From NCBI GenBank assembly GCA_018982785.1, contig JAHHEN010000001.1:62001-126000 (forward strand): DNA of 64,000 bases, in the 5' to 3' direction. Source of the DNA: Enterococcus innesii. Lineage in GTDB: Bacteria; Bacillota; Bacilli; Lactobacillales; Enterococcaceae. The notes under the pieces are model-generated. The model had not been told where the DNA came from and did no database searches. It worked only from the letters and a program-made list of their open reading frames with translations. Every line of letters begins with the position of its first letter. Within the stretch, counting starts at the first letter, position 1. Both the position numbers and the translations under genes were made by a program. Positions 46,611 to 51,506 of the stretch are shown here, piece by piece.

Positions 46611-47354
46611 CTAGACAAATACAAACAAAATTCCAGAACAGATCGTGCCTACCAATAGCCCACGAATACTGCCTTCCCCTTCATTGGGTAACTCAAATTT
46701 GATGATATTCACCAGCAAAGCGCCGGTGATCAAGGCTTCAATGATGACTACCAAATAGTAGGGCAATGAGACAAAGAGGGAGAACGCCGCTCCCGCGAAA
46801 ATACTGAAGGAAAGCACAAAGCGCCCATATTTGTTATAAAGGGCACCATGATGGTGATAGAGCAGCCAATCGTTCATAAGAAAATGCAAACCAAAGGCAA
46901 TAAAGTAGGTCAAAATGTAAAAACGCTCTGATAGCGTATTGGCAATCACGATATAGCCGATCATAATATTGTAGATCACATGAAAAGCGATATCCGACCA
47001 AAAAAAGGCGTTTTTGGCACTGGTGATGTCTTTCTTTTCTAACACCATAAACGTCCGCTCATCGATTTTGTAGATCACGTAACTGAAGACTAAGCCAAAC
47101 AGAACGATGCCATAGACCCCATGACTATAAAAAATCCCCGAATCCCAGCCAAATTCATCGATCAACACCGTTTGAAAATACGCCAAATGGGGCAATAGAT
47201 GAACGATCGCATAGGAGATCCCTACACCAGCGGCAAAGGAGCTCATGTATTGCACGTTTAGTTTTCTGGATGAGATAACATTTGATGATAGATGGATGAA
47301 GATAAACCCTAAAGTGATCATGCAATTCACAAAATTGTTTGTTAAATACGTCAT
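46611..47354 (-). CDS. ZIP-like polytopic membrane protein
   Basis: A 247-residue protein with about eight helices. Segments resemble the ZIP metal-transporter fold: MSSFAAGVGISYAIVHLLPHL in the first helices, GLHFLMNDWLLYHHHGALYNKYGR in the middle, and a C-terminal ITGALLVNIIKFELPNEGEGS. Histidines in HLLPHL and YHHHG could bind metal. The assignment rests on pattern only and transport is not proven. It is a single gene with its own terminator. Confidence 0.6.
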   Translation of the reverse strand: MTYLTNNFVNCMITLGFIFIHLSSNVISSRKLNVQYMSSFAAGVGISYAIVHLLPHLAYFQTVLIDEFGWDSGIFYSHGVYGIVLFGLVFSYVIYKIDERTFMVLEKKDITSAKNAFFWSDIAFHVIYNIMIGYIVIANTLSERFYILTYFIAFGLHFLMNDWLLYHHHGALYNKYGRFVLSFSIFAGAAFSLFVSLPYYLVVIIEALITGALLVNIIKFELPNEGEGSIRGLLVGTICSGILFVFV

Positions 47355-47834: not shown

Positions 47835-48170
47835 TTAGAATTCATTATACTTCTTTTTCGAATCTTTACTTTCTTTCACCGGATACTTCATGTTGTTTTT
47901 TTCCAGCTTTTCTTTGATGATCTCATCAATATCAAGACCCAAATTGTCTGCCAGCATATAAGAATAAATCAGAACATCGGCAATTTCTTCTTTTAGATGT
48001 TCAAAATCTTGAGTGGCTTCTTTAGGTGTTTTCCATTGAAAAATCTCCAACAATTCGGCGGCTTCGATGGAGATAGAAATAGCTAGATCTTTTTCATTAT
48101 GAAATTGTCGCCAATTGCGATCATCTCGAAATTTATTGATCCGTTCCATTGAAGAAGGTTGGTTTTGCAT
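47835..48170 (-). CDS. MazG-like nucleotide pyrophosphohydrolase
   Basis: A 111-residue all-alpha NTP pyrophosphatase. The metal-binding pattern is visible as SIEAAELLEIFQW followed by LKEEIADVLIYSYMLAD (ExxE then ExxD). Such enzymes cleave NTPs or dNTPs to NMP plus PPi, cleansing modified nucleotides or lowering alarmone or nucleotide pools. Its start lies inside the end of the helicase gene (38-base overlap), with AAAGGAG eleven bases ahead, so translation is coupled. This suggests that the pyrophosphatase works with the nuclease-helicase. Confidence 0.88.
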   Translation of the reverse strand: MQNQPSSMERINKFRDDRNWRQFHNEKDLAISISIEAAELLEIFQWKTPKEATQDFEHLKEEIADVLIYSYMLADNLGLDIDEIIKEKLEKNNMKYPVKESKDSKKKYNEF

Positions 48171-49827
48171 GGTAGGACTGGCTCCTTTCGTTTTGTAGGG
48201 TTAAGAGTTTTTGGCGGAGATTGGGATTGATTGCATAGATGTAAAGCCCTTTAATTGCTCGTTTCATTAATACATTCAATGAATTAAGGATGATCGTTTC
48301 TTTGGCTTTCTTCGTCAATTCTTGGTTCATATCGTCACGTCCCGTAAACGCCCCTTTGTCCTCATATTTATCGATATCGATGACAAGCTGGTCGGTCTCT
48401 GGATCGTAATCAACGGAAGGGCCAATGACAACTCCTACATTGTTTAAATCAAAGCCTTGGACGGTGTAGATTGAACCGACTTCACTGATTGTATCTGGTC
48501 GCTCCGCCCATGTTCGCTTCGTATCGGTCGTATTCCATGGCAGGTTGATCCCACCAGGATCTACAAGATATGAAGCTCCGTCTTTCTTATGAACATAATC
48601 GAATGTTGAGATGATCCGTGACAGACCTTCCTTTTTATCGAGAGAAAAGATTTTATTCTTCAACGCATCATGGGTTTCCATAATCTGAAGCTCAAAAGAT
48701 GCTGTTGATTCTGGAATCGGTGTTACACGTTTTTCTACGATATCATCGATCCATTGAATTATTTGTGGACTACTTTTCATTCTTAATTGATCTTTTAGCT
48801 TAAAGCGAGAAGCATTGTACCTTTTCTGAAACTGATCCAGTTTTTCCTGATCCCAGTAACTTTTGATTTTCAATACTTGCTTCGGATCAAAAATACAAAT
48901 CGTGATTTTTGCTCGCTTGATAATCTCTTCTAGTTGGTTTTCATAGTGAAAACTGTTATAACTGTCTTTCTTCGTTAAAAGCAAATGGGCTTCATCCACA
49001 ATAACGATGTCTGGGTGCAACTTCTGATTATCTGTTTTATTAATAAAAGAAGTTGGCTTTAACATATGATTCTTTTTCAAATTTGGCAGACTTTCTGCCA
49101 TTGTATGGTAGGTTTTTAACATCTCTGAATGGTTGACCAGCAAATAGTTATCGGTGCCTTTTAATACAGACTCTGACTTTGTATAGTCTTGAAGGGTGTT
49201 ATAGAGAGATGCCAATAGGACGCTCTTTCCCGTTCCAGCTTCTCCTTCAATCATTAAGACTTTTTGTGTTTCATCCTGGTGAATCGCTTGTTTACAGTAC
49301 TCAATAATTTCAAGTTTTATATCTAACTGTTCTGGCGTCAATTCTTTAAAAGGGGATAATTTATATACATCTTTGTTACGAATCGTATCGATTGAGTGCT
49401 TCGCCAATTGACGTCTTTGCAATTCTTCCCATAACTCTTGGAAGACCACTTCATCATAATACTCTTTTTCATAATACTGATGCATCTGCACCTGTCTTGT
49501 TTGACTGACGTTTTGTAACTGAAACTGCTCATCCCCAATGAAGTGATTGATCAAATTGGTTTCGATATTGTAGGTCGCTGATTGATTGAATTTTTCATGT
49601 CCAATCAGCAAGACTTCTTTAATTTCTCTGCGCTTAGAGTTATTCAAGTGCTGCTTCAATCGTTTGTTCACTTGAACCGTTTGACCAATGTACGCAACAG
49701 GCCTTTTCTTTTCATTTCGGTTGTAGAGTATGTAAACGACTGGGTACTGATCGATATAAGCCGTCGTTATGCTAGATAGCTCACCTTTCTTGAAATGATG
49801 ATCTTCTATGATTAGTTGGTTGGTCAT
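48133..49827 (-). CDS. GIY-YIG nuclease fused to DUF2075 superfamily 1 helicase (Nhi-like)
   Basis: A 564-residue fusion. Residues about 29-95 are a GIY-YIG nuclease with key residues in place: VVYILYN, AYIGQT, the arginine of NKRLKQH and the glutamate of YNIETNLI. Residues about 185-540 are a DUF2075 P-loop helicase-like domain: Walker A GEAGTGKS (195-202), Walker B DIVIVDEAHLL (273-283), RMKSSPQIIQWI, GSIYTVQGFDLNNVGVVIGP (451-470) and LNVLMKRAIKGLYIYA. DUF2075 nuclease-helicases include the staphylococcal anti-phage protein Nhi, which has a different nuclease; a defence role here is inference. GGAGACTCTAAAAT precedes the ATG, and MazG follows in the operon. Confidence 0.88.
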   Translation of the reverse strand: MTNQLIIEDHHFKKGELSSITTAYIDQYPVVYILYNRNEKKRPVAYIGQTVQVNKRLKQHLNNSKRREIKEVLLIGHEKFNQSATYNIETNLINHFIGDEQFQLQNVSQTRQVQMHQYYEKEYYDEVVFQELWEELQRRQLAKHSIDTIRNKDVYKLSPFKELTPEQLDIKLEIIEYCKQAIHQDETQKVLMIEGEAGTGKSVLLASLYNTLQDYTKSESVLKGTDNYLLVNHSEMLKTYHTMAESLPNLKKNHMLKPTSFINKTDNQKLHPDIVIVDEAHLLLTKKDSYNSFHYENQLEEIIKRAKITICIFDPKQVLKIKSYWDQEKLDQFQKRYNASRFKLKDQLRMKSSPQIIQWIDDIVEKRVTPIPESTASFELQIMETHDALKNKIFSLDKKEGLSRIISTFDYVHKKDGASYLVDPGGINLPWNTTDTKRTWAERPDTISEVGSIYTVQGFDLNNVGVVIGPSVDYDPETDQLVIDIDKYEDKGAFTGRDDMNQELTKKAKETIILNSLNVLMKRAIKGLYIYAINPNLRQKLLTLQNERSQSYHAKPTFFNGTDQ

Positions 49828-50255
49828 ATTTTAGAGTCTCCGTTTAGTGTCTATTCCATTAAGGTTATTTATTTTAGTATATCATTGCATATTTTGCTCT
49901 TAAAGCATTAAAGACAAAATTGGTAATTTTTTGTTTTAGCAAAATAACCATTATCTAAAAAAATCGCTATTGATTAATCTACTAATTTCGCCCAACGTGC
50001 ATACTTTGCTAATGATTTAATAGACTAACTTATTATCCTGAAACTCTTTTCAAACGAATCCTCTCTAAGACGTTCTAAAATAAATAGCTGAAAATCCCCT
50101 TTGATAATTCATCAAATATCCTCTGTTTAGGATATTTATAAATTGTTTAGTAAATCAAAAAAATATTTTTCAACATCAAAATAAATAAATATTTTATAAT
50201 TTTAATTTGACTAAATCATTCAATATGCGATAATCATTTACGAAAGGATGATTTG
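49828..50255. other. AT-rich intergenic stretch between divergent units
   Basis: It carries a minus-strand TATACT box near 49880-49890 for the helicase operon, a hairpin AAATATCCT/AGGATATTT at about 50107-50131, and the plus-strand promoter at 50207-50234. No gene is supported. Confidence 0.5.
50207..50234 (+). promoter_or_regulatory. Promoter of the 50256 gene
   Basis: TTGACT and GATAAT with 16 bases between them, 22 bases before the start codon. Confidence 0.5.
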
Positions 50256-50710: not shown

Positions 50711-51019
50711 ATGAAAAGAATTTGTTTTGTCTTAGTTTTGAGCAATGGATTATCTTACACACCATTAACTCCAGGTGTTCTTTATCAAAGAGACACAAGC
50801 CTCAAAGACTATTTTTCACCGTTTTACGACGTTTCAATCAATTATCTGAGAGATAAAGATACTGTTGATTACTTGGTCCTTCCTGAGCCATTCGCTCCTT
50901 TTGATAATGAAAATAACCTCCCCATCATAAAAGTTCCTTCTAAATTTTTTCTGACTAAAGACTTTGAAAAAATTAAGGCGTACATTGATGACTACTTTAA
51001 AGAAAACGATGCTAAGTAA
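50711..51019 (+). CDS. Hypothetical protein (102 aa)
   Basis: The ATG follows GGAAAGGTG. The alternating pattern (RICFVLVLSNG, DYLVLPEPFAPF, NLPIIKVPSKFFLTKDFEKIKAYIDDYF) suggests a small alpha/beta domain somewhat like PTS IIB-type folds, but no phosphorylated cysteine position is evident. There is no signal peptide. It is located between two small membrane genes in the AT-rich island; the function is unknown. Confidence 0.55.
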   Translation: MKRICFVLVLSNGLSYTPLTPGVLYQRDTSLKDYFSPFYDVSINYLRDKDTVDYLVLPEPFAPFDNENNLPIIKVPSKFFLTKDFEKIKAYIDDYFKENDAK

Positions 51020-51296
51020 TACTATCCTCGATCGTTTTGCGCCCTTACTGATTGATACCGTTATCAATCAGTTTTTTCGTCGGATTGTCAACTTATTTTG
51101 GGACGAGAAAACAGTCCGAATATTCTAAATTTATTCTTTTGCGATAAAATTATTCCAATATAAATAATAAGGTAATATTTATTTGGTAGCTCTCAATTAT
51201 TCTTATACTTAGCTGAGGGCATCACTTGCTTGACCAAAAAATTCAATGATCGAATACGGGCTAACGGTTTTAATTTATCTTAAAGGGGTTTTAGTT

Positions 51297-51506
51297 TTGA
51301 CAGACGAAAGATGGTTCCAAATAAGAAAAAGACGAAAAATAGAATTATATGTTTGTCTTTTAGTCGTTTTCCCAATGGTCTATGGGCTATGGTTCAACAT
51401 AGTTTTTCTTGTACAATATACTGCACTACTTTTTTGTATCGCAGTTTTAACAGCAATTTATGAACTCGGAAAACTATTAATTGATAAAACTCTAAGAAAA
51501 AGGTAG
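51297..51506 (+). CDS. Small two-helix membrane protein (69 aa)
   Basis: A TTG at 51297 placed eight bases after AAAGGGG is preferred over the farther upstream ATG, which lacks a ribosome site. The protein begins MTDERWFQIRKRRK and has two hydrophobic helices (about residues 16-34 and 37-55) with a basic tail (IDKTLRKR). It ends in a strong terminator. The size and form would suit a small effector or immunity protein, but nothing proves that. Confidence 0.5.
   Translation: MTDERWFQIRKRRKIELYVCLLVVFPMVYGLWFNIVFLVQYTALLFCIAVLTAIYELGKLLIDKTLRKR

Follow-up and report, generated by a model that had tools for sequence, protein, structure and literature searches.

A GIY-YIG nuclease-helicase and an overlapping MazG-like pyrophosphatase gene in Enterococcus innesii: a candidate mobile defence module

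Why should the gene for a nucleotide pyrophosphatase overlap the gene for a nuclease joined to a helicase? The question is raised by a locus of Enterococcus innesii (genome size 3.69 Mb) lying in a stretch of 64,000 nucleotides, called the window below (assembly GCA_018982785.1, contig JAHHEN010000001.1, positions 62,001 to 126,000; coordinates are counted from its first letter). A preliminary description of this DNA had seen there a GIY-YIG nuclease with apparently complete catalytic residues joined to a P-loop DUF2075 helicase, overlapped by a MazG-like gene, and had proposed that the pair might serve in defence. The comparisons given here support a mobile two-gene module in which the nuclease-helicase and the nucleotide pyrophosphatase are functionally linked. 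Its parts are as follows.

48133..49827, minus strand: nuclease-helicase of 564 amino acids (aa), GIY-YIG plus Schlafen group 3 (SLFN-g3) helicase (Pfam, conserved residues)
49588..49743, minus strand: GIY-YIG Pfam stretch PF01541, residues 29-80 (E 8.2e-06, 26.5 bits against a cut-off of 22.6)
49561-49563, minus strand: codon of the catalytic Glu E89, slightly past the Pfam stretch (residue conservation)
48232..49263, minus strand: SLFN-g3 helicase domain PF09848, residues 189-532 (Pfam E 2.8e-94; Walker A G195-K201, Walker B D278-E279)
47835..48170, minus strand: MazG-like pyrophosphatase PF12643, 111 aa, DCTPP1-like (Pfam E 1.3e-25)
48133..48170, minus strand: overlap of the two reading frames, 38 bases (coordinates)
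48182..48188, minus strand: Shine-Dalgarno-like AAAGGAG for MazG, within the helicase gene (sequence)

The nuclease-helicase and its MazG-like partner

The larger protein carries a GIY-YIG domain above the Pfam cut-off with its catalytic residues kept, and a PF09848 match with both Walker motifs, and it thus belongs with the GIY-YIG nucleases and with the SLFN-g3 helicases. PF09848 is presumably the family formerly named DUF2075. The composition given in the preliminary description was borne out by these matches and by residue conservation, and the 38-base overlap with the MazG-like gene proved exact. Residues Y32, Y46, G48, R56, H60 and E89 of the nuclease and G195, G198, G200, K201, D278 and E279 of the helicase were invariant or nearly so among 98 distinct full-length sequences, that of the window included, and all of them were invariant in an alignment of 60 rows. 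We take Y32, Y46, R56 and E89 to be the catalytic Tyr, Tyr, Arg and Glu of GIY-YIG nucleases. Judged by its active-site residues the nuclease-helicase is intact, and it is predicted to unwind and to cut.

The GIY-YIG end (residues 27-122) also matched the PADLOC candidate family PDC-S14 (E 9.1e-10). No Schlafen RNase domain was matched in a Pfam scan of the 564-aa protein, and a sequence search against solved structures found no convincing relative of the helicase. The best named match was a copy 98% identical in Enterococcus casseliflavus NBRC 100478; the next closest, from another genus (G038), was 70% identical and had no adjacent MazG.

The MazG-like gene starts with the ATG at 48170 and has its own ribosome-binding site upstream, and since the frames overlap, coupled translation is possible. 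The protein has the ExxE ... ExxD pattern of MazG-like/DCTPP1-type all-alpha nucleoside triphosphate pyrophosphatases: the metal-site residues E36xxE39 ... E62xxD65 and the aromatic residues W20, W46 and Y69 were kept in all 74 paired and all 25 lone rows. The best solved match was 4qgp, a chain with no name beyond 'pyrophosphatase' (E 6e-21); next came DCTPP1/RS21-C6 (2a3q and 6sqw, E 4e-15). The window protein aligns with the latter over most of its length and shares the catalytic pattern, but it is shorter and is encoded beside a nuclease-helicase. Aromatic residues equivalent to W20, W46 and Y69 line, we assume, the dCTP pocket of DCTPP1, and dCTP is the putative substrate by sequence likeness.

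One further feature stands upstream of the pair; sites of its kind occur in the region at chance level (11 found against 10.1 expected).

49876..49903, minus strand: promoter-like site TTAAGA-16-TATACT with TG ahead of the second hexamer, ~50 bases 5' of the helicase start

Recurrence and ancestry of the pairing

The loci compared were the best matches returned together with chosen regions and are a non-random sample; some locus sets included lone-MazG loci and some included helicases known beforehand to be without MazG. From 160 matched frames, 138 full-length GIY-YIG nuclease-helicases remained when broken or nuclease-less frames had been dropped. Clustering at 80% identity gave 61 groups, a group being counted as paired if any copy in it was paired (locus L195, of GIY-YIG type with MazG, lies outside this count). 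A MazG-like gene was present within 1.5 kb in 42 of the 61 groups. It was placed downstream on the same strand in 36 of these, upstream on the same strand in 5 and upstream on the opposite strand in 1, and the stop-to-stop frames overlapped in 34 and were separated by at most 60 bases in 8. Genomes of the family to which the host belongs list one to four matches to the MazG family, from which we estimate at well under 1% the chance that any one gene has MazG so near. The adjacency is thus far above chance. Chance adjacency was rejected on these groups and on 10 of 16 groups of a second type described next. Counted in this way, as the preliminary description had suggested, the adjacent pair recurs and its genes are not rare neighbours.

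In the second type, made up of more distant SLFN-g3 proteins, the GIY-YIG domain is replaced by a domain with a (K/R)-[IVL]-D ... ELK motif (23 of 23 by script), a motif typical of PD-(D/E)XK nucleases. The class is called PD-(D/E)XK-like here by this motif; no N-terminal family was found by Pfam in four such proteins scanned, and a weak NERD match was given by the relative L194. MazG lay within 1.5 kb in 13 of the 23 copies and in 10 of the 16 groups, mostly upstream. Left out of the count were L218 (a 205-aa frame), L196 (a 407-aa frame below the helicase-profile cut-off), and L194 and L197, which are PD-like by eye, fall below the same cut-off and have no MazG; with the last two included, 13 of 25 copies are paired. 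Since MazG stands beside both nuclease types, the pairing survives a change of nuclease.

The same pair was also found on named plasmids, the genes being separated by 59 base pairs (bp) in Priestia aryabhattai and by 5 bp in the archaeon Halalkalicoccus jeotgali. It is looser, ~0.55 kb apart, in an unannotated Halomonas record. MazG lies within ~0.6 kb in Marivirga and ~1.2 kb in Nocardiopsis eucommiae, and in both the frame of the helicase is apparently broken. In other plasmid records MazG was 3-8 kb away (L224, L226, L227) or was not found (L225).

HNH endonuclease genes were observed at some of these loci. In a Nocardiopsis flavescens plasmid (L227:8965-10325) a MazG-like and an HNH endonuclease gene share 4 bases, a further pairing of MazG with a nuclease, and a DUF2075 gene lies ~3.4 kb away. 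An HNH endonuclease beside a GIY-YIG-type helicase on an E. raffinosus plasmid (L188:9020-9895) is 46% identical over 263 aa to L194:11449-12273, which adjoins a helicase of PD-(D/E)XK-like type accompanied by a NUDIX gene; HNH is a possible further partner.

The nuclease-helicase and MazG have probably been brought together repeatedly, because their order and strand vary and because a tree of MazG sequences calls for many changes of label. The tree was built from 113 rows and 119 columns, a number of columns that limits it, and gains cannot be told from losses in the counts of change. The label for pairing with GIY-YIG required 18 changes (at least 10 forced by the starred branches), that for pairing with the PD type 7 (at least 5 forced) and that for lone genes 11 (at least 6 forced); of the 13 paired PD-type copies 12 carry the label in the tree (L207 is missing), and the lone row L198 duplicates L095. 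A single ancestral cassette inherited as a unit was rejected on these label changes. The MazG of the window clusters (100/99) with the stand-alone MazG genes found in its genus, being 79-81% identical to the lone copies of the genus, 99% to its E. casseliflavus counterpart and at most 72% to all other rows.

Mobility and genomic neighbourhood

The helicase is present in two of six genomes of the genus. Any match to it, partial and nuclease-less matches counted, was found in 38 of 105 genomes of the family and in 135 of 395 and 80 of 398 genomes of further sets, and MazG-like genes above cut-off were found in 91 of the 105. Flanking genes differ between genera and also within the genus coded g13. 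The uneven presence, the varied flanks and the plasmid records together make a patchy, mobile distribution, and the accessory role proposed in the preliminary description agrees with it. Its picture of an AT-rich island with orphan small genes held for the base composition, the GC content being 34-40% across the pair and 28-32% directly upstream against 42% for the whole window, but of the three small 'orphan' genes two proved to have DNA relatives elsewhere in congeners. Small open reading frames without family matches at 50711-51019 and 51246-51506 (28-32% GC) have DNA relatives elsewhere in congeners.

The pair is 97% identical between the two E. casseliflavus-type genomes. In NBRC 100478 (L128, L002) a 21-kb block that is absent from the window lies directly upstream of the helicase, before the small-gene region; it contains a PF13166 ATPase gene, presumably of PrrC type, a helix-turn-helix gene and, by eye only, sugar-transport-like genes. 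The site upstream of the helicase is insertion-prone. On the other side, 3' of MazG, lies a ZIP-transporter-like gene below the Pfam cut-off (46611-47354); in E. casseliflavus NBRC 100478 the pair is likewise followed by a relative of it. Nuclease-less SLFN-g3 proteins of ~400-480 aa are common in other Lactobacillales, with an extra copy in several genomes (L022, L024, L025, L058-L064). A phage-borne origin was considered and rejected: one scan of viral_contigs with two peptide patterns gave one locus, and four phage records were found, so that the gene looks chiefly cellular.

The genes around relatives of the nuclease-helicase were compared with PADLOC models (threshold E 1e-10). Thirteen of 72 contexts, being nuclease-less, on plasmids or near-duplicates, were left out beforehand, and 147 of the 231 adjacent proteins of the remaining 59 were scanned, the last loci in the list being missing; for the control, 20 loci were chosen arbitrarily in the same genomes, and 147 of their 199 proteins were scanned. 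The neighbours matched 194 PADLOC families and the control proteins 78, counts of families rather than of proteins or loci that are inflated by the many models per protein and give a direction, not a rate. Among the 25 families listed for the neighbours were Cas9, Csn2, DndF, GajB, DRT and type I, II and IV restriction. The control list was led by the mad3, mad8 and PD-T4-6 models, which we take to be generic ATPase and kinase families, and also held single reverse transcriptase (RT) and Cas1 matches. Relatives often lie near known defence genes, and the core locus never near defence that would have told against the preliminary description was not what was seen.

Individual contexts give more detail. 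A protein with phospholipase D (PLD), helicase and DUF3427 domains was present in 8 of the 72 contexts, some of which also held a NUDIX gene, and two larger clusters of repeated neighbours (18 and 10 contexts) are without a family label. At L111 a NUDIX gene and a PLD-helicase-DUF3427 gene stand directly before the 70%-identical, MazG-less helicase, and at L183 helicase, MazG, NUDIX and DUF3427 helicase are consecutive. Further near neighbours were DUF2357-PDDEXK, a Dcm-type methylase, GmrSD, HamA, Cas9 and Csn2, HamA lying directly downstream of one relative (L169) and being matched in 2 of 51 proteins scanned. Around the plasmid loci Cas6/Cas10, HsdS/HsdM, a restriction endonuclease, DUF262 and DUF3578 were found. 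The DUF3578 gene immediately precedes MazG in Priestia, and in two Paenibacillus plasmids it immediately precedes GIY-YIG relatives. DUF3578 is presumably an McrB-type DNA-reading domain, and with DUF3427 it gives a hint, but only a hint, of modified DNA as a theme. Stand-alone MazG-like genes were also seen near hsd-type (type I restriction) genes without an adjoining helicase, at L093, L094, L103 and L110 (PADLOC on three members).

Possible function and relation to known systems

The domains, the intact active-site residues, the conserved and apparently repeated pairing, the defence-rich neighbourhood of relatives and the patchy distribution are the observed basis on which we lean, by a small degree, towards a nuclease-helicase defence module, anti-phage or anti-plasmid, with a dCTP-type pyrophosphatase as helper. 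Association with defence genes suggests the defence role, and DNA is the presumed substrate of the nuclease-helicase. The two genes would form one operon-like module. The SLFN-g3 motor would load onto nucleic acid and travel along it while the GIY-YIG domain cuts, the attack being directed at the DNA of an invader, perhaps where it carries unusual bases or forms replication intermediates. That foreign nucleic acid is the target, and that phages would be affected at all, we infer. The DCTPP1-type MazG would split dCTP or modified dCTPs into monophosphate and pyrophosphate, and in acting on the nucleotide pool it might either starve the synthesis of the invader or clear away modified dCTPs and thereby keep host DNA from becoming a target. 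This nucleotide step is the least certain part of the defence reading. Action at the level of the pool is favoured over a tailored binding partner, because the order, strand and lineage of MazG vary and because NUDIX, an unrelated fold with similar chemistry, stands beside some relatives.

Several observations weigh against the defence module. Nineteen of the 61 GIY-YIG groups, five plasmid records among them, and 6 of the 16 PD-type groups have no MazG nearby, which means that MazG is not strictly needed; none of ten nuclease-less SLFN-g3 proteins (~400-480 aa) had MazG within ~1.5 kb, and no MazG-helicase fusion was found among 158 MazG and 199 helicase frames. Distances between helicases and between their MazG partners are moderately correlated (Mantel r 0.47 for 71 pairs, a value reached in none of 999 permutations), and direct co-evolution may thus play a part. 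The neighbours of lone MazG genes matched 169 PADLOC families for 134 proteins, the 25 listed all being type I restriction, so that MazG may be a general resident of defence regions; for this reason they were rejected as a neutral control and arbitrary loci were used instead. Many neighbours of relatives are ordinary metabolic genes, and the window's own neighbours (suf-type genes, a phosphotransferase-system (PTS)-type gene and the weak ZIP-like gene) include none for defence, the defence-rich setting being a property of the relatives. Some congeneric sets (L149-L151, L152/L155 and L164/L165) have flanks in common, and mobility is thus not equally recent everywhere.

Other roles can be set against the same evidence. 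MazG could itself be the effector, the helicase sensing invading DNA and MazG depleting dCTP until replication stops, as in known defences that act by depleting deoxynucleoside triphosphates (dNTPs), while GIY-YIG merely processes the trigger. The DCTPP1 likeness with intact metal-binding residues and the persistence of the pairing when the nuclease changes would suit this; yet MazG occurs in far more genomes of the family than any helicase match (91 against 38 of 105), so that many copies are lone and not obviously toxic, and MazG is missing from 19 GIY-YIG groups while the nuclease residues are invariant throughout the 60-row alignment. We consider an effector role for MazG unlikely. Housekeeping repair is less likely still, with the helicase-nuclease acting at damaged forks, MazG cleaning damaged dNTPs and the defence context arising from the gathering of mobile genes. 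DCTPP1-like enzymes are house-cleaners, MazG-like genes are widespread in the family and the locus with its flanks is kept in some congeneric sets, but the helicase is patchy even among close relatives (absent from four of six congeners), its flanks differ between genera and within g13, it occurs on plasmids, and its neighbours match many more PADLOC families than arbitrary loci do.

The overlapping frames, which permit coupled translation, and the distance correlation are what could be expected of a regulator pair in which MazG binds and restrains the nuclease-helicase like an antitoxin and releases it upon nucleotide changes in infection. Against such a pair stand the repeated changes of the paired label on the tree, the closeness of the window MazG to lone copies of its genus (its E. 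casseliflavus counterpart apart), the variable gene order and strand, the many helicases without MazG, and the NUDIX genes near some helicases. We hold it improbable, and the frequent change of lineage, position and strand makes the specific regulator that the preliminary description had allowed for less likely. That the genes are accidental neighbours, with no functional link, is scarcely credible: mobile genes cluster generally and restriction systems occur near lone MazG genes as well, but adjacency in both nuclease types, mostly with overlapping frames or gaps of at most 60 bases, and in bacteria as well as an archaeon, is hard to set aside.

The defence module proposed here has likenesses to several known systems. 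Nhi (SERP2475) of staphylococci is described as a single-gene defence in which one protein has nuclease and helicase (PMC12904381, PMC11811056), and Nhi has also been located on B. anthracis plasmids (PMC11811056). The union of nuclease and helicase in one protein is common to both, but Nhi is a single gene whereas here MazG overlaps and is near in most GIY-YIG groups; a single-gene system would suit the 19 groups in which MazG is lacking. The kinship to Nhi supposed in the preliminary description could not be confirmed, the Nhi sequence itself not having been compared. PADLOC gave no match named Nhi for the 564-aa protein, although the presence of an Nhi model in PADLOC was not checked, and two plasmid searches, one at E 1e-5 with the window protein and one at E 1e-20 with the PD-(D/E)XK type, each listed 33 records, among which neither Staphylococcus nor B. 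anthracis appeared, the presence of the Nhi record being likewise unchecked. Hachiman also combines a nuclease, HamA, with a helicase, HamB, and acts on DNA (PMC12278908), but as two separate proteins and not with a fused GIY-YIG; the HamA gene beside L169 indicates that Hachiman and the pair can be neighbours, not that they are one system.

The neighbouring PLD-helicase-DUF3427 and NUDIX genes resemble the pair in bringing together a nuclease-type domain, a helicase and a pyrophosphatase gene, and differ from it in the family of each. DUF3427 has been predicted to bind modified DNA (PMC7159879). The helicase domain is the 'Schlafen group 3' helicase of Pfam, but the N terminus is GIY-YIG or PD-(D/E)XK-like and not the Schlafen RNase domain. 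A part for Schlafen RNases in prokaryotic defence has been reported (PMC12839542). DefensePredictor places MazG among its predicted, unvalidated defence domains, and its main text has no occurrence of GIY-YIG, DUF2075, helicase or Schlafen (PMC13092281). Within the open-licence PMC full text no paper was found that links DUF2075 with GIY-YIG, or with phage and defense.

A bolder proposal, rather unlikely as a whole, is that the pair represents a widespread and undescribed class of immunity, in bacteria and on an archaeal plasmid, built from a Schlafen-type helicase with interchangeable nucleases (GIY-YIG, PD-(D/E)XK) and pyrophosphatases (MazG, sometimes NUDIX). The pyrophosphatase would clear modified dCTPs, leaving host DNA 'clean', and the nuclease-helicase would destroy DNA with the modified bases used by phages, MazG having been recruited repeatedly, at least once from the host genus, because its chemistry and not a binding surface matters. 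The module ties MazG, a predicted defence domain, to a defined nuclease-helicase through an apparently repeated pairing. It offers a two-gene handle on the reason for finding nucleotide pyrophosphatases beside immune proteins that cut DNA, and it is relevant to the mechanism of Schlafen-type helicases.

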